A stretch of 64,000 nucleotides of DNA from Sideroxydans lithotrophicus ES-1 (GTDB lineage Bacteria; Pseudomonadota; Gammaproteobacteria; Burkholderiales; Gallionellaceae), in NCBI RefSeq assembly GCF_000025705.1, contig NC_013959.1, positions 1,479,063 to 1,543,062 on the forward strand. Reading direction: 5' to 3'. Below the pieces are notes generated by a model. The model ran no database searches. It was not told where the DNA came from and saw nothing but the letters and a program-made list of their open reading frames with translations. The translations under genes were made by a program, and so were the position numbers. This document shows, piece after piece, positions 7,311-36,937 of the stretch (its first letter is position 1; every line of letters begins with the position of its first letter).

Positions 7311-7949
7311 ATGACCGAACAAACATTACGCCAGCAACTGCTGGACACCTCCCGCCGCATGGTCGAACTCGGCCTCAATCGCGGCACGGCAGGCAACGCC
7401 TCGGTGCGCCACGGCAGCGACATCCTTATCACGCCTTCCGCCTTGCCTGTGGCCGAGATGACCGAGCGGGACCTGGTGCTAATCGACAAGGAAGGCAAGG
7501 TGCTGCAAGGCCGCAAGCCTTCCAGCGAGTGGCGCTTCCATTGCGACATATTGAATGCCCGCCCCGAGATCGGTGCCGTGCTGCACATGCACTCCACCTT
7601 CGCCACCACCATCGCCTGCCTGGGCCGCGACGTGCCAGCCGTGCATTACCACATCGCCATCGCGGGTGGTGACAGCATCCGCTGTACACCTTACACCATC
7701 TTCGGCGAGCAGAACCTGTCCGACCTCGCACTGGAAGCACTGCGCGACCGCAAGGCCTGCCTGCTGGGCAACCACGGAATGATCGCGCTGGGCAAGGACC
7801 TGGACGATGCGCTGTCCGTCGCGCAGGAAGTCGAATATTTGTGCGAGATTTACTGGCGAGCATTGTCGGTAGGGGAGCCGAAGATACTTACCGCACAGCA
7901 GATGCATGAAGTGAAAGAGAAGTTCGTGGAGTACAAAAAGCGCGACTAA
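7311..7949 (+). CDS. Class II aldolase, FucA-like (probable methylthioribulose-1-phosphate aldolase)
   Basis: 212 residues from this ATG; an in-frame ATG at 7272 lies in a repeat and is less likely. The protein follows L-fuculose-1-phosphate aldolase closely along its length: GTAGNASVR phosphate loop, catalytic Glu in KPSSEWRFH, zinc ligands in HMHST and a later GNHG. The MtnB dehydratases belong to the same superfamily but match less well. Between mtnP and mtnA, the expected substrate is 5-methylthioribulose-1-phosphate, cleaved to dihydroxyacetone phosphate and methylthioacetaldehyde, as shown for the Ald2 enzyme of the DHAP shunt. That substrate is inferred from context; fuculose metabolism genes are absent nearby. 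Confidence 0.8.
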   Translation: MTEQTLRQQLLDTSRRMVELGLNRGTAGNASVRHGSDILITPSALPVAEMTERDLVLIDKEGKVLQGRKPSSEWRFHCDILNARPEIGAVLHMHSTFATTIACLGRDVPAVHYHIAIAGGDSIRCTPYTIFGEQNLSDLALEALRDRKACLLGNHGMIALGKDLDDALSVAQEVEYLCEIYWRALSVGEPKILTAQQMHEVKEKFVEYKKRD

Positions 7950-7975
7950 ATGAAGTTTGAGATTTGCAACGGACA

Positions 7976-8056
7976 TTCCCCCATCCCAACCTTTCCCTCG
8001 CGGGAGAAGGGTTCAACTTCCCTCTCCCACCGGGGGAGGGAATGAGGGTGGGGGAA
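7976..8056. repeat. Intergenic CCCTC/GAGGG palindromic repeat
   Basis: An imperfect inverted repeat with outer arms CCCCCATCCC and GAGGGTGGGGG and an inner CCCTCTCCC / GGGGGAGGG stem. It fills most of the gap between the aldolase and apt. A related copy lies at 10637-10735. This is a widespread proteobacterial intergenic repeat type; transcript stabilisation is possible but not shown. Confidence 0.65.
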
Positions 8057-8094
8057 CCAGCTTTAATCAACCTGAGTAGAAATTAGGAACCACC

Positions 8095-8622
8095 ATGCCC
8101 ATCAAATCCCGAGTCCGTACCGTCCCCCATTACCCCAAACAAGGCATCATGTTCCGCGACATCACCACGGTGCTCAAGGACCCCATCGGCCTGCGCGCCA
8201 CCATCGATGAACTGGTGCGCCGCTACAAGGACGTGAAAATCGACAAGATCGCCGGCATCGAATCGCGCGGCTTCATCATCGGTACGCCGCTGGCCTACGC
8301 GCTCGGCGTCGGCTTCGTGCCCATCCGCAAAAAAGGCAAACTTCCCGCCGAAACCATCGGCCACGACTACGCACTCGAATACGGCACCGACCGCATCGAG
8401 ATCCACACCGACGCGATCTCCAAAGGCGAAAAAGTTCTGCTGGTGGACGATCTCATCGCCACCGGTGGCACGGCCGAAGCTGCCGTCATCCTGATCGAGA
8501 AGATGGGCGGCAAGATCATCGAATGCTGCTTTATGATCGACCTGCCGGATATCGGCGGTCGTGCGCGGCTGGAGAAACGCGGGCACAAGGTGTTTGCCTT
8601 GTGCGAGTTTGAGGGTGATTAA
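8095..8622 (+). CDS. apt: Adenine phosphoribosyltransferase
   Basis: 175 residues, family-typical length. The PRPP-binding motif VLLVDDLIATGGTA lies near residues 120-133, and 'IAGIESRGFIIG' and 'RKKGKLPAET' are the usual Apt substrate loops. It converts adenine plus PRPP to AMP in the cytosol. In this cluster it recovers the adenine released by MtnP, so the placement is functionally coherent. It is preceded by an intergenic repeat, and its stop codon is followed without a gap by a 143-bp palindrome, which suggests that the transcript is processed or attenuated here. Confidence 0.95.
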   Translation: MPIKSRVRTVPHYPKQGIMFRDITTVLKDPIGLRATIDELVRRYKDVKIDKIAGIESRGFIIGTPLAYALGVGFVPIRKKGKLPAETIGHDYALEYGTDRIEIHTDAISKGEKVLLVDDLIATGGTAEAAVILIEKMGGKIIECCFMIDLPDIGGRARLEKRGHKVFALCEFEGD

Positions 8623-8765
8623 TGGAACCTGCAAAAATCTACTGCGCGATTCGATAGCGGCGTTGCGCGGTACTCGAAATCCTCATGTACTTTAAGTACA
8701 TTCCGGTTTCTCCGTTCCGTGCGCCTTGCTATCGAGTCGCTCGCTACGATTTTTATCAGGTTCCA
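8623..8765. repeat. 143-bp long palindromic element abutting apt stop
   Basis: An imperfect palindrome over its whole length. Outer arms are TGGAACCTG ... CAGGTTCCA, the next arms AAAATCTACTGCG ... CGCTACGATTTT, then GATTCGATAGC ... GCTATCGAGTC, and the centre is CTCATGTACTTTAAGTACATTCCG. It starts at the base after the TAA of apt. Related elements follow infB (15396) and rnhA (44570). Size and architecture recall ERIC elements, but the sequence is different. Confidence 0.8.
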
Positions 8766-8789
8766 TAAGGCCAATATCTGGGTGGCAGT

Positions 8790-9491
8790 ATGACGAACGA
8801 AAAATTCCATACAAAGGCAGAAGAGCATCTCCATACGAGAGAGCATTTTCGTGGCTTAGTGACCCAACAATTTTTATCTCACCATAAAGATGTAAATATT
8901 CTTGTGGCTTCAATGCACGAAATTGTAGCCAGTATGGTGACGTTTCTAGCAGATCAAGATATTGGAAAGATTAGAAACGGGGAATATATAGTTAAATTAG
9001 CCAGTTCTTTTTGTAGGTCTTACTTTATTGCGGCAGACCTTACACTTTGCGGTGAGCTAACCGATGCTGCCGTAATAGTTCGCAAACAAATGGAACTGCT
9101 AGCGCGGTTAAATGAACTGACTGCGGGCTTGGATGTGAACTCTCTAATTAATAAAACACCTCAACTTAAATATCTCAAAGGCGCGTTAAAGAAACAGTAT
9201 GGTGCATATTCCAAAGTGGCTCATTCTTCGAGTCTTGAAGGTATGATTCTCCTAGGTGAGGAAGTAACTGAAGATGGAGTCTTCACGCCTCTTCATCCTG
9301 TATTTCAGGAAAATGCCTACGTTAGCTTGCATCATCTATTTCTAACGGAGATTGGCTTCTTCATGTGGGCTATGGAATTTTATCGAAAGCACTTTCCCAA
9401 TTACGATAGCACTTATGATTTGCGATATTTCTCCCTTGCTATTGATCGGCACCAAAAAATATTCCCTTTAAATAAATCGAGCTTAGCGTAG
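8790..9491 (+). CDS. AT-rich gene of unknown function
   Basis: 233 residues, mostly predicted helix, soluble, no signal peptide. The stretch 'AADLTLCGELTDAAVIVRKQMELLARLNEL' region (about 86-112) resembles the helical core of DUF5677/HEPN-like proteins ('R..mE...rl' pattern), but I would not assign the family firmly. Base and codon use are clearly more AT-rich than both neighbours (many AAA, ATT, TTT, TTA codons), a sign of recent acquisition. It sits between apt and mtnA, directly after a long palindrome. The start is ATG with a GGGTGG-like upstream site. No role in methylthioadenosine salvage is suggested by the sequence. Confidence 0.7.
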   Translation: MTNEKFHTKAEEHLHTREHFRGLVTQQFLSHHKDVNILVASMHEIVASMVTFLADQDIGKIRNGEYIVKLASSFCRSYFIAADLTLCGELTDAAVIVRKQMELLARLNELTAGLDVNSLINKTPQLKYLKGALKKQYGAYSKVAHSSSLEGMILLGEEVTEDGVFTPLHPVFQENAYVSLHHLFLTEIGFFMWAMEFYRKHFPNYDSTYDLRYFSLAIDRHQKIFPLNKSSLA

Positions 9492-9531
9492 GTAACGCTG
9501 CGCTTCACCCAAGTACATTTGAGAAAGTGAT

Positions 9532-10623
9532 ATGAAAATCGAAACCCTGCGCTGGTTCAACGACCGGCTGGAGATGATAGACCAGCGCATCCTGCCTGCT
9601 GCCTTTGAATATTTGAGTTACTACTCGGCAGCTTCGGTGGCGGAAGGCATCCGCAGCATGGTGGTGCGCGGTGCGCCGGCCATCGGTGTGGCGGCGGCTT
9701 ATGGGGTGGCGCTGGAGGCGTTGCGATTGTCAGAGGAGCCGTCCACCCTTCGATCCTTCGACAAACTCAGGACAGGCGGAGCTCAGGGCGAACGGACTGA
9801 GTTTGATAAAGGCATGGAAGAAGGCTTTACCGTGCTGGCCGCTAGCCGCCCAACGGCGGTGAACCTGTTCTGGGCCTTGCAGCGCATGCGCAAGGTGTGG
9901 GTGAGCGTGGCGACGCAAACGCCGCAGCAGGTCGCGCAGCGTTTGCTAGCCGAGGCACACGAGATACTGGCCGAGGACATCCGCATCAACAAGGCGATGG
10001 GCGCGAACGGCGCGGCCTTGTTGAAGGACGGGGCGCGGGTGTTGACGCATTGCAACGCAGGGGCGCTGGCAACCGCAGGCTGGGGGACGGCGCTGGGGGT
10101 GTTCCGTTCGGCGGTGGAGGCGGGCAAGAAGATCTCGGTCATTGCCGACGAGACGCGGCCTTTCCTGCAAGGGGCGCGACTGACGGCGTGGGAGATGGTG
10201 CAGGAGAATATCCCGGTGACGCTGATCACCGACAACATGGCCGGTCACCTGATGGCACACGGCGAGGTGGATGCCGTGGTGGTGGGTACGGATCGCGTGG
10301 CGGCCAACGGCGATGTGGCGAACAAGATCGGTACCTACATGGTGGCGGTGCTGGCGAAACGGCACAACATCCCGTTCTATGTGGCGTGTCCGCTTTCGAC
10401 CATCGACTTGAACATCGCCACGGGCGCGGATATTCCCATCGAGGAGCGCTCGGTGGACGAGGTGAAGGGCTTCCGCGATAACCATTGGGCGGCGCAGGGG
10501 GTGAAGATCCGCAATCCGGCCTTTGATGTGACTCCGGCCGAACTGGTGACGGGGCTTATCACTGAAAAGGGTGTGATTTTGCAGCCGGATGTGCAAGGCA
10601 TTCGGAAGTTGATGGCGGGATGA
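9532..10623 (+). CDS. mtnA: Methylthioribose-1-phosphate isomerase
   Basis: 363 residues, eIF2B-like fold. 'RGAPAIGVAAAYGVAL' (substrate loop), 'ASRPTAVNLFWAL', the catalytic-loop region 'LTHCNAGALATAGWGTALG' (Cys near 177), 'DETRPFLQGARLT' and 'VGTDRVAANGDVANKIGTY' (catalytic Asp) are classical MtnA. It isomerises methylthioribose-1-phosphate to methylthioribulose-1-phosphate, the substrate of the nearby aldolase. It is some 15-20 residues longer than usual because a palindromic repeat has been inserted in frame (9743-9806, residues about 71-91). The insertion falls in a loop before the ASRPTAVN helix and keeps all catalytic motifs, so the enzyme is probably active. Confidence 0.93.
   Translation: MKIETLRWFNDRLEMIDQRILPAAFEYLSYYSAASVAEGIRSMVVRGAPAIGVAAAYGVALEALRLSEEPSTLRSFDKLRTGGAQGERTEFDKGMEEGFTVLAASRPTAVNLFWALQRMRKVWVSVATQTPQQVAQRLLAEAHEILAEDIRINKAMGANGAALLKDGARVLTHCNAGALATAGWGTALGVFRSAVEAGKKISVIADETRPFLQGARLTAWEMVQENIPVTLITDNMAGHLMAHGEVDAVVVGTDRVAANGDVANKIGTYMVAVLAKRHNIPFYVACPLSTIDLNIATGADIPIEERSVDEVKGFRDNHWAAQGVKIRNPAFDVTPAELVTGLITEKGVILQPDVQGIRKLMAG
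9743..9806. repeat. REP-like palindrome inserted in frame within mtnA
   Basis: The segment contains CCTTCGACAAACTCAGGACAGG and GCTCAGGGCGAACGG, the two halves of a common extragenic palindromic repeat. Perfect 9-base arms CAAACTCAG (9762-9770) and CTGAGTTTG (9797-9805) can pair. Translation gives 'TLRSFDKLRTGGAQGERTEF', a run foreign to MtnA. The reading frame is kept. Confidence 0.75.
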
Positions 10624-10636
10624 ACGTTTGATGACT

Positions 10637-10735
10637 TTGCCCCCTCGCCCAGACGGGGAGAGGGTTGGGGAGAGGGGAATGGTTGAAATGCGCCCTTCTT
10701 CCTGACCTGCTCTCACAGGGAGATGGGATGAGTTT
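10637..10735. repeat. Intergenic GC-rich repeat, relative of 7976-8056
   Basis: CCCCCTCGCCC ... GGGGAGAGGGTTGGGGAGAGGGG followed by a half-copy ending in CACAGGGAGATGGGATG. It shares the CCCTC/GAGGG character of the repeat between the aldolase and apt. It fills the space between mtnA and the rimP promoter. Confidence 0.55.
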
Positions 10736-10757
10736 AGCTATCTTCCTTAAATACCTG

Positions 10758-10786
10758 TTTCCATTGGCCTGACCTTTTGGTACAAT
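10758..10786 (+). promoter_or_regulatory. Predicted sigma-70 promoter of the rimP operon
   Basis: -35 TTTCCA (10758-10763), 17-base spacer, -10 TACAAT (10781-10786). Transcription should start near 10793, giving a leader of about 45 bases before rimP that contains a terminator-like hairpin. Confidence 0.55.
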
Positions 10787-10803
10787 CCGCGCCGTTTTCA
10801 GAT

Positions 10804-10823
10804 GGGCTTCGAGCCCGTTTTTT
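10804..10823 (+). terminator. Leader hairpin with T-tract (candidate attenuator)
   Basis: GGGCT-TCG-AGCCC followed by GTTTTTT, just downstream of the predicted promoter and about 20 bases before the rimP start. It is shaped like a small intrinsic terminator inside the operon leader, so it may attenuate transcription. Direct evidence for attenuation is lacking. Confidence 0.45.
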
Positions 10824-10839
10824 ATTTGTGGGTGCGAAT

Positions 10840-11265
10840 ATGGATGTGGCGAAGCTGGTAGAGACGACACTGGCCGGTATGGGCTACGAGTTGGTCGATC
10901 TGGAAGTGTCCGGTCGCGGGCTGATGCGCGTGTTCATGGACAAGCCGGACGGCATCTCGGTGGAAGACTGCGAGCGCGTGAGCAACCAACTGGTGCGCCT
11001 GTTCACGGTGGAAGGGGTGGAATACGAACGCCTCGAAGTCTCTTCGCCGGGACTGGATCGTGTGCTGAAGAAAGAATCCGATTTTGTGCGGTTTGCCGGG
11101 CAGAAGGCGCAGATCAAGGTGCGCGTGCCGCTGGCAGGGCGCAAGAACTTTGCCGGCATCATCGGCGAAGTGAAGGATGGCGTAGTGCAGTTGGATGTGG
11201 ATGGCAGCCTGGTAGCAATTGAGCTGTCGAATATGGATAAGGCACGTTTGGTGCCCGTGTTTTGA
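10840..11265 (+). CDS. rimP: Ribosome maturation factor
   Basis: 141 residues from the ATG at 10840; a longer in-frame extension is possible from 10777 but would overlap the promoter and leader hairpin. N-terminal alpha/beta domain ('[13 protein letters not shown]...[20 protein letters not shown]') and C-terminal SH3-like barrel after '[17 protein letters not shown]' are the RimP pattern. It assists 30S subunit assembly. It is the first gene of the conserved rimP-nusA-infB operon; nusA begins 17 bases downstream. Confidence 0.93.
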
Positions 11266-11282
11266 AGTAGTTGGAGAAAGCT

Positions 11283-12758
11283 ATGAGCCGTGAAGTTCTG
11301 TTGTTGGTAGATGCCTTGGCGCGTGAGAAGAACGTGGACAAGGAGATCGTGTTTGGTGCGCTGGAATCGGCATTGGCCTCTGCTACCAAGAAACGCTTTT
11401 CAGATGAAGAGGCGGATGTGCGCGTGAGCATCGATCGCCAGTCCGGCGAGTACGAATCGTTCCGTCGCTGGCAGGTGATGGACGACGAGACGTTCGAGAC
11501 GCCCGAGCTGCACATCAAGCTTGAAGAGGCGCAGAAACGCGATCCGCATATCCAGCTGGAAGAGTTCATCGAAGAGCCGCTGGAGAACATCGATTTCGGC
11601 CGCATCGGCGCACAGGCTGCGAAACAGGTGATCTTTCAGAAGATCCGCGATGCGGAACGCGAACAGATCCTCGCCGACTTCATGGAACGCAACGAGCACC
11701 TGGTGTCCGGCACCATCAAGCGCATCGAACGCGGCAACGCCATCGTCGAATTCGGCAAGATCGAAGCGCTGCTGCCGCGCGACCAGATGATCCCGAAAGA
11801 GAACCTGCGCGTCGGCGACCGTGTGCGCGCCTATCTGCTGCGCGTGGACCGCACCGTACGCGGTCCGCAGATCATCCTGTCGCGTATCACCACCGAATTC
11901 CTGAGCAAGCTGTTCGAGCTGGAAGTGCCCGAGATCGAGGAGGGGCTGCTGGAGATCGTCAGCGCCGCACGCGATCCCGGTTCGCGCGCCAAGATCGCGG
12001 TGCGCAGCCACGACCAGCGTCTCGATCCGATCGGCACCTGTGTCGGTATGCGCGGTTCGCGCGTGCAGGCCGTGACCAACGAATTGGCGGGTGAGCGCGT
12101 CGACATCATCCTGTGGTCGGAAGAGCCGGCAACCTATGTCATCAATGCCCTGGCTCCGGCCGAGGTGACCAGCATCGTGGTGGATGAAGAGAAGCACAGC
12201 ATGGATGTGGTGGTCGAGGAAGAGAACCTGGCGCAGGCCATCGGCCGCGGCGGCCAGAACGTCCGTCTCGCCAGCGACATGACCGGCTGGGAGATCAACC
12301 TGATGACGGTGGAGCAATCCGCCGAGAAGAACGAGCAGGAATTCTCCAAGATCCGCGACCTGTTCGTTGCCAAACTGGATGTGGACGAGGAAGTCGCCGA
12401 TATCCTGGTGCAGGAAGGCTTCAATACGCTGGAAGAAGTAGCTTATGTGCCGCTGGAAGAGATGCAGGCAATCGAATCTTTCGACGAGGCGACTGTCAAT
12501 GAGTTGCGCAGCCGCGCACGCAATGCGCTGCTGACCGCCGCTATCGTCAACGAAGAGCAGGTCGAGCATAACATCGAGGACTTGCTGAAGATCGCTGGCA
12601 TGGACGAAGAGACGGCGCGTACCTTGGCGGGCAAGGGTGTCGGCACGCAGGAGCAGTTGGCCGATCTGGACGGCGATGAACTGGTTGAAATGACCGGGAT
12701 GGACGCGGAGCGCGCAAATCAGTTGATCATGACGGCACGCGCGCCCTGGTTCGTTTAA
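11283..12758 (+). CDS. nusA: Transcription termination/antitermination factor
   Basis: 491 residues from the ATG preceded by GGAG. The N-terminal RNA-polymerase-binding domain (1-130) is followed by an S1 domain ('[27 protein letters not shown]', about 138-200), two KH domains (second includes '[15 protein letters not shown]'), and two C-terminal acidic helical repeats ending in '[18 protein letters not shown]', the gamma-proteobacteria-like AR1/AR2 layout. NusA binds RNA polymerase and modulates pausing, termination and antitermination. Confidence 0.97.
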
Positions 12759-29520: not shown

Positions 29521-31023
29521 TTATTCCGGTCGCATGTGCGGGAACAGGATGACGTCCCTGATGCTGGCGCTGTCGGTCAGCAGCATGACCAATCGGTCGA
29601 TACCGATGCCTTCGCCGGCCGTCGGAGGCAACCCGTATTCGAGTGCGCGAACGTAGTCGTTGTCCTTGAACATCGCCTCTTCGTCGCCAGCATCTTTCGC
29701 TGCAACCTGAGCATCGAAGCGACGCTCCTGGTCTTCTGCATCGTTCAGTTCGGAGAAACCATTGGCGATCTCGCGGCCGACGATGAACAGCTCGAAGCGT
29801 TCAGTGATCTCCGGGCGGGCATCGCTGCTGCGCGCCAGCGGCGAGACTTCGACGGGATAGTCGATGATGAAGGTCGGCTCGAACAGGTGTGCCTCGGCCA
29901 GCTCTTCGAACAGCGACAGCTGCAAACCGCCGACCGCGTCTTTCGGATTGTATTTGGCCTTGAGGTCTTTCAATTCGTTGACCAGGAAATCGCGGTCGTT
30001 CAGCTGCGCATCGGTGAACTGCGGATGATATTTCTGGATCGCTTGTACCATGGTCAGGCGGTGGAACGGCTTGCCCAGGTCCAGTTCCTTGCCCTGATAG
30101 GTGATGACGGTGGTGCCGAGTACCTTGCGCGCCACTTCAGCGAACAGCTTCTCGCTGAAGTCCATCAGGTATTTGTAATCGCGATACGCCTCGTAGAATT
30201 CGATCATGGTGAATTCCGGATTGTGGCGTGTCGAGACGCCCTCGTTGCGGAAATTGCGGTTCACCTCGAACACCTTCTCGAAACCGCCCACCACCAGACG
30301 CTTCAGGTACAGCTCCGGCGCGATGCGCAGGTACATCTGCAGGTCCAGCGCGTTGTGGTGCGTGACGAACGGCTTGGCCGACGCGCCGCCGGGAATGGGG
30401 TGCATCATCGGCGTTTCGACTTCCAGGTAGCCGTGGCGCACGAAGAACTCGCGAATCGCCTGGATGATCTGGGTGCGTGCGATGAACACCTTGCGCGATT
30501 GCTCGTTGGTGATCAGGTCGAGGTAACGCTGGCGGTATTTCTGTTCCATGTCGGTCAGACCGTGGAATTTTTCCGGCAACGGACGCAGCGCCTTGGTCAG
30601 CAGGCGCACCTGCGTCACGCGCACGGAAAGCTCGCCGCTCTTGGTCTTGAACAGTACGCCGACCGCACCGAGGATATCGCCCATGTCGTAATGCTTGAAC
30701 TCGCTGTGCGCTGCTTCGCCGGTGATGTCGTTGCTGATGAACAGCTGGATGCGGCCGCTCATGTCCTGCACCGTGGCAAAGCTGGCCTTGCCCATCACGC
30801 GCTTCAGCATCATGCGGCCGGCCACGGCGACATGGACCTGCGCGGCTTCCAGTTCGTCATGCGATTTCTCGCCGAACTCGGCATGCAGGTCGGCGGCCAT
30901 GTGCTCGCGCTTGAAATCGTTGGGGAAGGCGACGCCTTTTTCGCGGATCGCCTTCAGCTTGGCGCGGCGCTCCGCGATGATCTGATTCTCGTCCTGGACT
31001 GGGGTAATGGGTTCGGTGCTCAT
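29521..31023 (-). CDS. lysS: Lysyl-tRNA synthetase, class II
   Basis: 500 residues. An OB-fold anticodon-binding domain (60-150) with '[13 protein letters not shown]' is followed by the class II core: motif 2 '[23 protein letters not shown]' and motif 3 '[13 protein letters not shown]'. It charges tRNA-Lys. In E. coli prfB and lysS form one operon; here the pair is preserved but three genes are inserted between them. Confidence 0.97.
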
Positions 31024-31117
31024 GGTGTTCTGAATGGGTTGAGTTAAATTTTAGCGGCGTGAAATATAGCACAGGGACGGGGTTTTCAGGACTTGCTTGT
31101 ACACCCGTTGCTGCTGG

Positions 31118-33883
31118 TCATGACCTTTCCCGCACCAGCACCTTCACGCCCGGCGCCCAGGTGTCCGTCGGTTTCTTCTTGAAAGTCACCAGCGTCAACA
31201 TGGACGGGTCGTACACGCCGACGTTGTGGGTGACCGGCGTGGTTAGCAGATATTGCGCACGGGTGGCCTTGAGGAACTTTGCCACGCGCTCGATGTTGAC
31301 GATGTCGAGGTGGGCGAAGGGTTCGTCGATGAAGACGAAGCCGCCGGGACGCGACTCTTCCATCATCAGTGCCACCAGCAGGATCAGCGACTTCATCACC
31401 TGCTGTCCGCCGGAAGCATCGCCGTCGTTCATACCCATGAAGCCCTTGTCGTCGAAGTTGAAGCGCACCGCCAGGCCGGCCTGTGCCAGCGACAGGTCGT
31501 TATTCTCAAGCGCCACCGGCTCGTGTTCCACCTTGATGCCGGCCAAGTCGCCCAGCACTTTGAGGTTCTTCACGTAGCGGCTGACGGTGTGGCGCAGCAC
31601 GGCGATGTACTGCTCGCGCGCGGTCTCGGTCTGGCTGCGCGCCATCTCGTTGTCGCGGCGGCGCGAGGAGAGGTCGCTCTCCATGCGCCGGTAGTCGTCC
31701 TTGATCTTGTCGCGTAGCGCGACCACGGTATCGTCGGTCTCCCAGGATTCCTCCTTGAAGCGAAGTTCGATCTCTTCGATGCGGCGGTCGATGTTGGTGG
31801 TGTCGCGGTATTTGTCGGCGAGTTGCTGGTTGGCGTCGCTGTTGCTCCAGCCAGCCGGGAACTGCTTGCGGTTATGGCGCAGTGTCTGCACGCGGCGCTT
31901 CTGCTCCTCGCGCGCGGAGCGGTTCTCTTTGCCGGCGATCTCGCGTTCCAGCCCCTGCAAGGCGAACTCGATCTTTTGCAGACTGCCGAAAGCCGTGCTG
32001 ACGGCCTTGTCGGCCTCCGCGCGTTCCTGTTGCGCTTGCAGCACGGTATTGTCGCGACGACGCAGCACCAGCGCATCGTATTGCTGGCGCGCTTCGGCGA
32101 ATTCTTCGGCGCGCTCGGCGAGCCGTGCGGCAGCATCCACCCCGGCCAGTTGCGCCTGCTGCGTGCGGATGCGAGAGGTGAGTTCGTTCAATTGTTCGCG
32201 CAAGGGCGCCAGCGCTTTTTCGAGCTGGCCGCGCTGCTCGCGCAGTGCTTCCAGACGCGCCTTGCCGAAACGCGCCTGATCCGGCGCAGCATAGCGGCCG
32301 CCGCGTCGTTCACGCAAGTAGCCTTGCCGCGTGATCCAGTCTTCGCCGCGCGGCAGCTTGCTGCCTGCGGCCGCGTCTTCCACGCGGCGGGTGCGTTCCA
32401 GTGTGCGCAGCAGCCATTCCGGCACCGGCTTGGCGAAGTGCACCACTTCCAGCAGCGAGCCCTTGGGCGCGAGTCCGGCGCTCACGCAGTCCGGCACGAT
32501 GAAGTGGCGGTAGCGCAGCTTTTCGCCCAGCGCCATTGCCGCTTCGGTGTCTTTCTCCTTGCCCAGCAGCACCAGATGAGCGAACGGCGCGAGCACGGCT
32601 TCCACCGCCGACTGCCAGGTCGGGTCGGCGACCTCCACCACGTCGGCGAGCAGGTCGTGCACGATGCCGGCCTGGCTCAGCGCCTGGCGGAAAGCGCCGA
32701 CATCGTGCGGATCGGCGCGGCGTCCGGCGGCGAGGTTCTCCAGCATCTCGTCGAGCTGGCGTTGCTTCTGTTCCAGTTCGGCGATGCGCAAGCGCAGGCC
32801 ATCACGTTCCCCCGCAAGTTTTTCGATCTCGCGTGCATCGGCGAGCTTGTCGCCTTGGGTGCTGTGCACTTGCTGTTCCAGCCGTTTTTGTTGTTCGACG
32901 ATGGCTTCCCAGCGTCCCAGTTCGCGGTTCAGTTCGTTCAGCGCGCGCTGCTGGTTCTGTTCGTTTTCCTGTGCTGCCTGGCTGCGCAGTTGCGCGTTTT
33001 CGTGGGCCTGTCGTTGTGCCTGCAATTCGAGCTGCATGCTTGCGCGTTCGGCGTGCTTGGTGCGCCATTCTTTTCGGATGGCAAGCAGGGTGCGGCGCGC
33101 GTTGTCGGCTTCGCGCTGCAACAAGTGATGCTCGAGACGCGGACGGATTTCGGCGGTCAGCGAGACGCGCTCCTGATTCAGGCGATGCCATTCCAGATAG
33201 CGGTTCACCTTCTGCTCGTGTTTCTCCAGGCTGTTGCCGAGCGCTTCGAGCTGGTTCTGTCCCGCATCCAGTTCGCGCACGGTATGTTCCTGGTGGTGGC
33301 GTGCCTCTTCGTACCGTTCCAGCACTTCCTTGTCGCCGAAGACCTGGAACACCAGGTCGAGCAGATCCTTGTGCGACAGCTCGCACAGCTTGTCGGTCTG
33401 CCCCTGTTCCAGCGACAGCACGCGGGCGATGGCGGGCGACAGGCCTGCGCTGTGCAAAATGCGCTGGTAGTCGCGCACGCCGAACTCTTCGCCTTTCTGC
33501 TCGATCTCCTGCAGACTGACCTCGCCGTCGGCGATCCAGTATTTGCGCGACCAGTCGCCGCCTTTCTTGTCGATGCGGCAGGCCAGCGTGATCTTGTCCT
33601 GCTGGTAGGGCAGGCGGAACGGGCGGTAGCTCGCGCCCGGCGGGCACTGGTTGTCCACCACGCCGCGCAGCCAGCAGAAGTCCTCGCCGTTGCGGCGCAC
33701 GTAGCGCTTGTAGTCGCGTTTCTTCGAGCACTCCAGCGCCAGCAACGTGCGCATGGCATCGAGCAGCGTGGTCTTGCCCGAGCCGTTGGGGCCGGAGATG
33801 GTGATGATGGGTGCGTCCAGCGGCAGCTTGAAGTTGCGCCAGTAGTCCCAGTGTACGGTTTCCAGTTCCATCAACCTGAACAT
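31118..33883 (-). CDS. SMC-like ATPase of a three-gene condensin-type operon
   Basis: 921 residues. N-terminal head: Walker A GPNGSGKTT (31-39) and an 'SLEQGQTDKLCELSHKDLLDLVFQVFGD' Q-loop/SMC stretch near 150. A long coiled coil (about 190-390), a compact hinge-like domain (395-520, 'GIVHDLLADVVEVADPTWQSAVEAVL'), a return coil, and a C-terminal head with signature ASGGQQ (near 824), Walker B 'GFVFIDEPFAHLD' (near 851) and 'QYLLTTPVTHN'. To my eye, the C-terminal head most resembles eukaryotic Smc5 (SGGER ... QYFLITP) and MksB/JetC. The start overlaps the previous stop (TGATG). It probably loads on DNA with the two proteins encoded upstream. Confidence 0.85.
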   Translation of the reverse strand: MFRLMELETVHWDYWRNFKLPLDAPIITISGPNGSGKTTLLDAMRTLLALECSKKRDYKRYVRRNGEDFCWLRGVVDNQCPPGASYRPFRLPYQQDKITLACRIDKKGGDWSRKYWIADGEVSLQEIEQKGEEFGVRDYQRILHSAGLSPAIARVLSLEQGQTDKLCELSHKDLLDLVFQVFGDKEVLERYEEARHHQEHTVRELDAGQNQLEALGNSLEKHEQKVNRYLEWHRLNQERVSLTAEIRPRLEHHLLQREADNARRTLLAIRKEWRTKHAERASMQLELQAQRQAHENAQLRSQAAQENEQNQQRALNELNRELGRWEAIVEQQKRLEQQVHSTQGDKLADAREIEKLAGERDGLRLRIAELEQKQRQLDEMLENLAAGRRADPHDVGAFRQALSQAGIVHDLLADVVEVADPTWQSAVEAVLAPFAHLVLLGKEKDTEAAMALGEKLRYRHFIVPDCVSAGLAPKGSLLEVVHFAKPVPEWLLRTLERTRRVEDAAAGSKLPRGEDWITRQGYLRERRGGRYAAPDQARFGKARLEALREQRGQLEKALAPLREQLNELTSRIRTQQAQLAGVDAAARLAERAEEFAEARQQYDALVLRRRDNTVLQAQQERAEADKAVSTAFGSLQKIEFALQGLEREIAGKENRSAREEQKRRVQTLRHNRKQFPAGWSNSDANQQLADKYRDTTNIDRRIEEIELRFKEESWETDDTVVALRDKIKDDYRRMESDLSSRRRDNEMARSQTETAREQYIAVLRHTVSRYVKNLKVLGDLAGIKVEHEPVALENNDLSLAQAGLAVRFNFDDKGFMGMNDGDASGGQQVMKSLILLVALMMEESRPGGFVFIDEPFAHLDIVNIERVAKFLKATRAQYLLTTPVTHNVGVYDPSMLTLVTFKKKPTDTWAPGVKVLVRERS

Positions 33884-34566
33884 CAGGACTCCTCCTCGTT
33901 ATGCAACTCCCCAAGCGTCACATCGCGCAGGATGCCGCGCTGTTTCAGCAGGTCGGACAGCGCGCCTTGCAGGATGCGCGGCGCCATTTCGGCGTAGTCG
34001 AAGGCGAGGTCGAGCAGCGGGCCTTCGTGGATCACCTTGTTCTTGCGCTCGATGAAGCCGAGGCGCGACAGCTGCGGCAGCGCGAACTGCTGCAGGCGCG
34101 CCTTGCCGCCGAGCAGCTTGCCATAGTCTTCCAGCAGTACGTTCTCGGCGATGCCGCGCGAAGCCTCGTGCGCCAGCGGTGTGAGCTTCACGGTCTCGAA
34201 CATCTCGGTTTGCTCTTCTTTCTGCGCGGATTCGCCGGACTGCTGGCGTTCGCGCTTGGGCAGGATGATCAGCGCCCACAGGATCACCAGCAGCGCGACC
34301 GCATCCTTGGGCAGGCCGAGGTTGCTGGATTGCCAGGCGTCGTTCTGTTCGAACACCGCGCTCTCGCATTCGCGCGTGAGCGCGACGCCAACGTAAGCGG
34401 AGAAAGGATGTGCCAGCAGGCGCAGGCCGTTGGTGGCCAGACGCTGTTCCACTTCGTCGCGGAATCCGGCGTCCACCAGCAGGCGGCGCACTTCCTTGTC
34501 CTCGCGTGGCAGGTAGCGCAGCGCCAAGAGGCGGGCGATCAGGCGGGCGGCATGGTCCTGGTTCAT
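33883..34566 (-). CDS. KITE/MukE-MksE-like winged-helix protein
   Basis: 227 residues. Residues 75-110 include 'KDAVALLVILWALIILPKRERQ', then a charged linker and a C-terminal winged-helix-like part ('LQQFALPQLSRLGFIERKNKVIHEGPLLDLAFDYAEMAPRIL'). Size (MksE about 230), gene order and position next to an SMC gene fit a KITE dimerisation subunit that binds the kleisin. No enzyme motif. The ATG overlaps the preceding stop by 4 bases and its own stop overlaps the SMC start by one base. Assignment rests on context and fold pattern, not on a recognised signature. Confidence 0.65.
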   Translation of the reverse strand: MNQDHAARLIARLLALRYLPREDKEVRRLLVDAGFRDEVEQRLATNGLRLLAHPFSAYVGVALTRECESAVFEQNDAWQSSNLGLPKDAVALLVILWALIILPKRERQQSGESAQKEEQTEMFETVKLTPLAHEASRGIAENVLLEDYGKLLGGKARLQQFALPQLSRLGFIERKNKVIHEGPLLDLAFDYAEMAPRILQGALSDLLKQRGILRDVTLGELHNEEES

Positions 34567-35825
34567 GTGTTTTTCTCCTGTTGCGGTTCGATATGGCCGC
34601 CGCTCATCGCGGCAATCTCATCGCGTCCGATGTGTTGCAATTCGAAGTTCTCGTCCCAGCACAGTCGCAACGGCAGATGCGCCAGCGGGGCGAGTTCCGG
34701 GTCGACGTTCTGTTCGCCGAGGAAGGACAGCAGCGACAGGCGATACGATGCGTCGCTGAATCCGCCGCCGACGATGCCGTCGGCAAGCGTGAGCGGCTCA
34801 TCCAGCCCGGACAACAGGCGCACCAGCGCGGCCAGCTGATACGGCGGGTCGAGTGCAATGTCGTCCACGTACTCGACTTCGGACGGCGCGGGCATGGCGG
34901 AGACGCGACGATTCGGCAGGTCGCGCGCGACGAACTCTTCGGTGTTGTCCACCATCACGTCGGGCAGGATGAAAGTGGTTTCCGGCGTGAGGGTGAGTTG
35001 CCCGGCGGCGAGTTCGACCAGTTCATCCACGGTGCGCTGCTTGAGCCAGGCGGCGAGTTCGGAAGAGCTGAGCCCGCCGTGCGACAGGTGCACCTGCTGG
35101 CGCGAGATCTCGGCCAGCTCGCGCTGGAACACGGAAGACATGCGCATCAGTTTGGATTGGCGCTGGCCGATCTGTTGCGACAGTTTCCAGGTCGTGTCAT
35201 CCAGCCCTTCGGTGGCCAGGTCGCGCATGACCTCGTTGGCCTTGTCCATCCATTTCTGCACCGCCTCCAGCCTGGTTTGCGCTTCGCGCAGCCGGAATTC
35301 GGAGCCCGAGGTGACTGCCTGGGAGAACTCCTCTTCCAGTTCGGCCAGGCGGGCCAACAGGTGCGCCAGCGCTTCCGGCGACAGCTTGCCCACGGCCGCA
35401 CCAGCGGCGATCTGCGCAGCGAGGAACTCGCCGTCCTGCTCGGTGTTGAAGTTGAGCAGGCTGGACAGCGCCGACAACACCATGCGTCCGGCGGAGGAAA
35501 GGCGATAGAGATGACGCTCGTTGTCCCACAACAGCAACTCGTGTTCGCGCAGACGGCCGAGCACGGTGTTGAGCTTGGACTGGTTGATGAAGGCAAAGTG
35601 GCTTTGCAGTTCCCGCGGTGACCACTCCGGCGCCTCCGCGCGCAGGCCGATCTCGCGCAACACCATCAGGCGCACCATCACCTCATCGTCGCCGCCACGG
35701 AACAGCGCGATCATTGCGCCGATCAGTGGCTTGGCCGCGAACAGCGGGAAGAATTGCGGTACGTCGGCGGGCTCGACGCCGGCGACGAAGAACTCGGCGA
35801 GGCCGTTGTCTTCCTGCTCGGACAT
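34563..35825 (-). CDS. Kleisin/MukF-MksF-like protein of the SMC operon
   Basis: 420 residues. An N-terminal winged-helix domain (about 50-125: 'REIGLRAEAPEWSPRELQSHFAFINQSKLNTVLGRLREHELLLWDNERHLYRLSSAGRMVL') is followed by a helical middle (150-250) and a long linker to a small C-terminal domain, the layout of MukF/MksF kleisins (about 420-440 residues). It would bridge the SMC head and neck and recruit the KITE. It starts seven bases after the prfB stop, so the whole trio is probably read from the prfB promoter. Confidence 0.6.
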   Translation of the reverse strand: MSEQEDNGLAEFFVAGVEPADVPQFFPLFAAKPLIGAMIALFRGGDDEVMVRLMVLREIGLRAEAPEWSPRELQSHFAFINQSKLNTVLGRLREHELLLWDNERHLYRLSSAGRMVLSALSSLLNFNTEQDGEFLAAQIAAGAAVGKLSPEALAHLLARLAELEEEFSQAVTSGSEFRLREAQTRLEAVQKWMDKANEVMRDLATEGLDDTTWKLSQQIGQRQSKLMRMSSVFQRELAEISRQQVHLSHGGLSSSELAAWLKQRTVDELVELAAGQLTLTPETTFILPDVMVDNTEEFVARDLPNRRVSAMPAPSEVEYVDDIALDPPYQLAALVRLLSGLDEPLTLADGIVGGGFSDASYRLSLLSFLGEQNVDPELAPLAHLPLRLCWDENFELQHIGRDEIAAMSGGHIEPQQEKNT

Positions 35826-35832
35826 GTTGCTC

Positions 35833-36937
35833 TTAAACGCCTTGCTTCAGGCTGGCTTCGATGAAGGGATCGAGGTCGCCGTCGAGCACCTTCTGCGTAT
35901 TGGATATCTCGACGTTGGTGCGCAGATCCTTGATGCGCGACTGGTCGAGCACATAGGAACGGATCTGGTGGCCCCAGCCGACATCGGTCTTGGACGCTTC
36001 CAGCTTGTCGGCTTCGGACTGGCGCTTGCGCAGCTCCAGTTCGTACAGGCGCGACTTCAGCATGGACATGGCCTCGGCCTTGTTGCGGTGCTGCGAGCGG
36101 TCGTTCTGGCACTGCACCACGATGCCGGTGGGCTGATGGGTGATGCGGATCGCCGAGTCGGTCTTGTTGATGTGCTGGCCGCCCGCACCTGAGGCGCGGA
36201 AGGTGTCGATACGCAGATCGGCCGGGTTGATGTCCACTTCGATGGAATCATCCACTTCAGGGGAGACGAACAGACTGGCGAAGGAGGTGTGGCGACCGCC
36301 CGAGGAATCGAACGGCGATTTGCGTACCAGGCGGTGCACGCCGGTTTCGGTGCGCAGGTGACCGTAGGCGTATTCGCCTTCGACCTTGAGCGAGGCGCTG
36401 CGGATGCCGGCGACATCGCCGTCGGTCTGCTCCAGCACCTCGACCTTGAAGCCCTTGCGCTCGCAGTACTTGAGGTATTGGCGCAGCAGCATCGAGGCCC
36501 AGTCGCACGCTTCGGTGCCGCCGGCGCCGGCCTGGATGTCGATGAAGCAGTTGTTCGGGTCGGCCGGGTTGGAAAACATGCGGCGGAATTCAAGCGCGGC
36601 GACGCGAGTCTCGATGTCCTGCACATCGGCGGCGATGCTGTTCAGGCTGTCGTCGTCATTCTCGGCTTGCGCCATCTCGAACAGTTCTGCTGCATCGTCG
36701 AGGTTCTGGCTGATCCGGATGAGGCCAAGCACCACGTCTTCCAGCGACTTGCGTTCGCGGCCCAATTCCTGCGCGCGCTTCGCATCGTTCCAGATGGCTG
36801 GGTCTTCGGCGAGCTGATTGACTTCGGCTAGGCGTTCCTGCTTGCTGTCGAAGTCAAAGAAACCTCCGTAACTCATTGCTGCGATTGCGTAAATCTTGCA
36901 GGGAATTGGAGAGGGCGTTGAGTTGTTCGGCTTCCAT
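35833..36937 (-). CDS. prfB: Peptide chain release factor 2, with programmed +1 frameshift
   Basis: 367 residues once the frameshift is included. The gene starts at the ATG at 36937, runs 27 codons ([16 protein letters not shown]...) to an in-frame TGA at 36856-36854, and shifts +1 at CTT-TGA-C to continue '[14 protein letters not shown]'. An ATG at 36876 in the second frame is not the true start. Peptide anticodon-like 'SPF' ([17 protein letters not shown]) and the catalytic '[16 protein letters not shown]' GGQ loop are intact. It terminates at UGA and UAA; RF2 level is autoregulated through the frameshift. Confidence 0.96.
36853..36867 (-). promoter_or_regulatory. prfB +1 programmed frameshift site
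   Basis: Minus-strand order: Shine-Dalgarno-like GGAGG (36867-36863), three bases (TTT), the slippery CTT, the stop TGA and C. Spacing and the UGA-C context are those of the E. coli prfB site. Confidence 0.95.

Follow-up and report, generated by a model that had tools for sequence, protein, structure and literature searches.

The 64,000-nucleotide window analysed here, from Sideroxydans lithotrophicus ES-1 (NC_013959.1, positions 1,479,063 to 1,543,062), carries three minus-strand genes at window positions 31118-35825 (the trio) that encode an SMC ATPase with KITE-like and kleisin-like partners. From sequence comparisons, we consider it probable that the trio represents the core JetABC genes of a divergent Wadjet-like family from which the nuclease gene jetD has been deleted, and that it now serves as an MksBEF-like chromosome condensin. 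We also lean, with less confidence, towards a wider reading in which loss of jetD repeatedly converted a JetABCD family spread across one order, presumably Burkholderiales in the GTDB sense, into a housekeeping condensin, which replaced Smc altogether in one genus. In such a condensin the kleisin and KITE subunits would close an SMC dimer that loads on DNA and extrudes loops with ATP, and this loop extrusion would organise the chromosome rather than set off the cutting of plasmids. We found a graded natural series that runs from intact JetABCD through jetD deletions with remnants and old JetD-less lineages to a distant genus without detected smc, which suggests that a defence system became a chromosome organiser and, if true, catches it at each stage of that change. 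The transition from plasmid killer to condensin is testable with close relatives, some of them at the same chromosomal site.

Kinship of the subunits and jetD in relatives

The kleisin-like and KITE-like genes overlap by ATGA (34563-34566) and the KITE-like and SMC genes by one base in TGATG (33883), between prfB and lysS, just as the earlier note on this DNA had described. The same gene order was found in Gallionellaceae and Thiobacillus, where the SMC proteins are 72-92% identical over the matched parts; because this order is kept in relatives and dN/dS (the ratio of nonsynonymous to synonymous substitution rates) lies far below 1, the trio is not a chance arrangement.

The SMC gene (31118..33883, minus strand) encodes 921 residues containing the Walker A motif GPNGSGKTT together with ASGGQQ and FIDEPFAHLD, all three of which had been correctly read from the sequence before. 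The protein matches PF02463 in Pfam (2.2e-17) and JetC in PADLOC (9.4e-21). We compared it part by part, using hhalign, with the SMCs of DUF4194-type operons (9 of type A and 6 of type B) and with 33 canonical SMCs; locus L024 was excluded from the head profiles. The N-terminal head gave probabilities of 98.6 with type A JetC, 97.1 with type B and 97.0 with canonical SMC, and the C-terminal head gave 94.4, 91.1 and 74.5, respectively. By these alignments, both head halves are nearest to JetC/MksB among the three profiles compared, none of which was an Smc5 profile. The earlier note had named RecN, SbcC and Rad50 as competing identities for the ATPase; the first rank went to SMC_prok_B among the NCBIfam models (92 bits, below its own cut-off, with Rad50 and SbcC at 0.0016-0.0025) and to an SMC in the PDB list, where a Rad50 chain came second (2.6e-7). 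The hinge matches SMC hinges, with the Pfam hinge model PF06470 at 0.004, below cut-off. Chains named SMC, Smc1, Smc4 and Rad50 were among the 18 PDB sequences matched.

The 227-residue KITE-like protein (33883..34566, minus strand) gave no Pfam match near significance. When its family profile was aligned with the DUF4194 (MksE/JetB) profile (26 sequences), columns 2-193 of 228 matched at E 0.0024 and probability 12, while the controls reached 0.12 (best of 40 column-shuffled profiles), 0.3 (reversed), 0.14 (lysS) and 0.51 (prfB). One f208 homologue matches PF13835 at 0.0043, below cut-off, and another, that of L097, matches nothing in Pfam. The protein looks, if weakly, like a remote MksE/JetB relative. 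The 420-residue product of the first gene (34563..35825, minus strand) matches nothing in Pfam or PADLOC, and its place, size and co-conservation with the other two point to a kleisin role in the JetA/MksF position. Searches of the PDB with KITE, kleisin and JetD profiles returned nothing useful. Known JetA (DUF3375-type) and JetB models in Pfam and PADLOC do not match the window proteins, so scanners relying on them would probably miss intact members of the family. A trio of the MksBEF/JetABC kind, as the earlier note had proposed, agrees with these comparisons.

The relatives named include Sideroxydans, Sideroxyarcus, other Gallionellaceae and Thiobacillus. At L009, L013 and L014, a gene of ~380-400 codons begins either at the SMC stop codon or immediately beyond it, and the next gene is lysS in Gallionellaceae and another gene in Thiobacillus. 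The JetD proteins of L009 and L013, the two scanned, match PADLOC JetD1 at 6.7e-15 and 6e-12 at best, a second value for the weaker match being 2.6e-11; DUF2399 was above cut-off in the L013 protein only (2.1e-5), and the L178 JetD had no Pfam match. The E and D-x-D of the Toprim pattern are invariant in 15 of 15 aligned JetD sequences. Judged by these matches, relatives carry a JetD-type Toprim nuclease gene where the window has none: the jetD site (jetD is ~1.18 kb) is occupied in the window by 94 bp at 31024..31117 (minus strand). A search of the window genome, a single 3.0 Mb contig that the tool rates as 100% complete, turned up no relative of JetD. The earlier note had named, as a finding that would refute its proposal, an adjacent nuclease kept elsewhere and simply lost here as a standard Wadjet; such a gene, jetD, does follow the SMC gene in relatives and is gone here, but a standard Wadjet was rejected on the unmatched JetA and JetB models.

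Two further arrangements were seen in Thiobacillus and in genome G024. At L024 (Thiobacillus; 7617-11858), the SMC and JetD matches lie within one 1413-residue frame in which the SMC is interrupted in its C-terminal part, either really or through an assembly error. Genome G024 holds two copies of the system, a lysS-linked one without jetD (L084) and one that keeps jetD beside a partial prfB-like match (L085).

Distribution and loss of jetD

We classified 88 loci for JetD state: 34 in clade I, 52 in lineages II, and the jetD-bearing loci L159 and L192. Clade I (Gallionellaceae, Thiobacillus and kin, f215, f230, f15 and f227; support 1.00) was drawn from an 83-locus tree rooted on G539, from which L086, L087, L089, L091, L161 and L171 were left out as incomplete. 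The state table leaves out L010, L021, L022, L023, L027 and L094, which share genomes with L086, L089, L087, L093, L028-type G028 and L013, respectively. In clade I, jetD was present at 23 loci, absent from 8 and cut by contig ends at 3, so that 8 of 31 scorable loci lack it. In lineages II, the other lineages of the order, 4 loci have jetD (all f208), 46 do not, and 2 have no SMC on the contig, so that jetD is missing from 46 of 50.

The clade I loci without jetD are the window locus (W), L026, L083, L084, L086, L087, L088 and L089. Some of them retain pieces of the gene: L026 keeps the last 36 jetD codons, and L084 keeps the last 3-4 codons and the stop. The junctions of W, L086 and L087 are alike, and L088 shows another join, making at least four different jetD-loss junctions in clade I. 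Compared with these, the W sequence at 31024..31117 is a deletion junction, and loss of jetD appears recurrent. Loss is the simpler reading in clade I because jetD-bearing loci stand at the base of that clade. We rejected the count of six deletions that six JetD state changes on the SMC tree would imply, since the L086 junction is like those of W and L087 even though L086 groups with the jetD-bearing L025; this conflict between tree place and junction points to recombination. In genome G003 (L021/L089), the place of jetD is taken by a 1454-residue gene on the opposite strand (L021 2340-6704) in whose product leucine-rich repeats, a part resembling a GTPase and an end resembling a glycosyltransferase were recognised by eye.

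No such JetD was found elsewhere at E <= 0.01 in 43 further JetD-less genomes, with both positive controls recovered, or in any of 9 genomes of an earlier set, a count that excludes G024 (second copy) and the jetD-bearing G539. The JetD tree, which leaves out L024, L091 and L179, shares 12 of 24 splits with the kleisin and KITE tree; the deep order is broadly alike and many local groups differ, which lends vertical descent of JetD only partial support. In f208, JetD sits on a very long branch (3.37). Its sequences (L166, L167, L169 and L172) are extremely divergent, and L166 retains ENLSVFE and CDLDPSG. The f208 JetD may have been re-acquired. Since this branch is so long and the mostly JetD-less lineages II group together with a support of only 0.42, the direction of change is less sure there.

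Purifying selection and genus g8

To follow selection on the trio, we computed dN/dS by the Nei-Gojobori method with our own script. For the JetD-less pair W/L083, the values were 0.10 (kleisin), 0.06 (KITE) and 0.18 (SMC), compared to 0.075 for lysS and 0.046 for prfB. Seven JetD-less pairs of lineages II gave 0.014-0.143 with two exceptions, a KITE pair at 0.28 (few changes, dS 0.14) and a kleisin pair with saturated dS; in two of the seven, dS was 1.5-2.1 in most genes, near saturation. The trio gave similar values in JetD-bearing pairs (0.005-0.19), so that the ratios show neither a relaxation of selection following the loss nor any change in it. By these ratios, purifying selection on the trio continues in the absence of JetD. 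In genus g8, the trio of the pair L097/L138 (G040 and G831) had dN/dS of 0.014-0.044, with obgE at 0.012.

Of 45 trio genomes, 41 had a match to a canonical SMC model that exceeded its cut-off (12 candidates scored per genome). The four exceptions were G040 and G831, which belong to g8 and lack jetD, G836 (89% complete, with jetD) and G757, in which smc is in two pieces. In G757 these pieces lie ~30 bp apart (C1:113811-117280, L276), and the trio has no jetD. All six g8 genomes (99-100% complete) carry the trio, jetD was not found in the stretch fetched around it in any of them, and at E <= 0.01 none of them matched the canonical SMC of the relative G568; what came closest in every case was the SMC of the trio itself (E 0.0145-0.035 over 34-36 residues). 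The gene order mrp-smc-zipA-ligA of G568, named by eye, becomes mrp, ~145 bp, zipA and ligA in G040, with no trace of smc between mrp and zipA. Taken together, these observations read as an apparent replacement of Smc by the JetD-less trio in g8.

Known systems, alternative readings and genomic setting

The family resembles Wadjet type I (JetABCD, also MksBEFG or EptABCD) in the kleisin-KITE-SMC-Toprim nuclease order of the relatives, in their JetD1 match and in SMC heads nearest JetC. It differs in its kleisin and KITE proteins, which are unmatched in PADLOC and Pfam, and in the length of the SMC, 921 residues versus 1107-1219 in 16 of the 20 DUF4194-type operons that were read (in the remaining four it was truncated, misread or 1013 residues long); moreover, the four-gene jetA-B-C-D order is present in relatives, whereas the window genome has no jetD. 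With MksBEF it shares a kleisin-KITE-SMC operon without a nuclease, the trio's kleisin being assigned by position. The MksBEF of Pseudomonas aeruginosa, likened here by its description, is likewise a three-subunit condensin beside Smc, but the trio family shows several losses with deletion remnants. MukBEF apparently replaced Smc-ScpAB in an enterobacterial ancestor, according to a passage in PMC10586767. Apparent replacement of Smc is common to MukBEF and the g8 trio, whereas the trio's match to PF04310 is 0.048, below cut-off. The trio SMC has the hinged architecture of Smc-ScpAB, but its heads are further from Smc than from JetC, the trio has no ScpA or ScpB Pfam match at E <= 1, and canonical smc is a separate gene. 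Parts of PMC10586767 derive MksBEF, and perhaps MukBEF, from Wadjet and call the relationship unresolved; MksBEFG, MksBEF and Wadjet are treated, in the parts seen, in PMC10123090, PMC7485682 and PMC12287153. Among the titles listed from the open literature, a scope that leaves most subscription papers and all preprints outside, there was none on the trio family or on loss of smc in such a genus.

Several observations weigh against a condensin of JetABC descent. The best stretch of the JetC match lies within the coiled coil, and the models of other coiled-coil ATPases, mad3 and LmuB (1.6e-17), scored nearly as well in PADLOC. For the hinge, canonical SMC (98.8) and type B MksB (98.7) are equally close, and type A (96.9) is less so. 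The kleisin profile gave no match to known JetA/MksF beyond shuffled controls, in a comparison where the two known kleisin types themselves hardly match each other. The window genome also carries a canonical Smc (1179 residues) as a separate gene, and the trio is patchy in the window genus, where KITE or SMC detected it in 13 of 34 genomes, many of them incomplete assemblies. Strong constraint is not special to g8, as the smc-bearing sister pair L136/L137 has dN/dS of 0.029-0.044. Finally, no SMC condensin other than the JetD-less trio was detected in g8, but no search aimed at ScpAB, MukBEF or DUF4194-type MksBEF was made there. Because the trio is patchy in the window genus and Smc is present, a chromosome role is best supported for g8 and lineages II; the window trio would share it by extension, and an accessory or decaying role in the window genus is possible.

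Decay is the strongest of the rival explanations, and we regard it as unlikely. On this account the Gallionellaceae trio lost its task with jetD and is disappearing, which accords with its patchy presence in the genus, with jetD-less states at the tips of the clade I tree and with the canonical Smc. All three frames are nevertheless full-length in W, L083, L084, L088 and L026, the W/L083 ratios are as low as 0.06-0.18, and decay cannot explain the JetD-less lineages II and g8. Less likely again is silencing of plasmids without a nuclease, in which the trio would still sense small circular DNA and compact or silence it, much as one review proposes for Smc5/6 and viral circles. Descent from JetABCD, described as a DNA-shape sensor in part of PMC10586767, would suit this proposal, as would a patchiness resembling that of a defence system, but the apparent replacement of smc in g8 and constraint close to that of obgE are unexpected for pure defence. 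We think it very improbable that the trio has as its partner some unrelated nuclease whose gene lies elsewhere: the JetD profile used would miss a JetD of a different family, and DUF2399 was scanned in 11 genomes only (one match, below cut-off, in G539, which bears JetD anyway), but no other gene turned up repeatedly next to the trio at 14 loci, where several of the neighbours identified by eye look housekeeping. The bacterial Smc5-like complex suggested by the earlier note from ASGGQQ and QYLLTTP is hardly credible, as no chain named Smc5 or Smc6 was among the 18 PDB matches (some chain names being unspecific), SGGQ is common to JetC/MksB proteins, the heads are nearest JetC/MksB of the three profiles compared (none of Smc5), the operon has a single SMC gene with no Smc6 partner, and relatives have a JetD partner. 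We retain the JetABC-derived condensin as the preferred reading of the trio.

Of 399 genomes sampled at order level, 62 had the family; of 369 sampled at class level, two did, namely the window genome and G539 (with jetD). The search for plasmid-borne copies was set aside after yielding only two partial Variovorax matches. The earlier note had the trio riding with core translation genes, which is true of some clades. prfB lies upstream in most clade I loci (it was not found within the 14 kb of L096) and, among 14 further loci with neighbours named by eye, in L181 (f21). In other families obgE precedes the trio (L097, f5; L099, f22; L157, f213), and an rlmL-like methyltransferase gene follows it in L097 and L099. 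The gene after the trio is proB in L098 (f14), and the one before it is proA in L178 (f227) and a phosphomannomutase gene in L159.

In the window, prfB (release factor 2; 35833..36937, minus strand) ends 7 bp upstream of the trio, and a gap of 94 bp separates the SMC stop from the start of lysS (29521..31023, minus strand). A promoter-like stretch containing TATATT stands before lysS and after the W junction and is common to jetD-bearing relatives. The window prfB keeps the layout of a programmed +1 frameshift, with an ATG at 36937 and a Shine-Dalgarno-like GGAGG followed by CTT TGA C, and the listed 347-residue open reading frame (35833-36876) starts inside the gene. A further protein matching PF02463 (553 residues) is encoded elsewhere in the window genome. 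Between L009 and L025 or L084, prfB has a dN of 0.19, compared to 0.03-0.06 for lysS in near relatives, a divergence that suggests allele replacement of prfB beside the trio.

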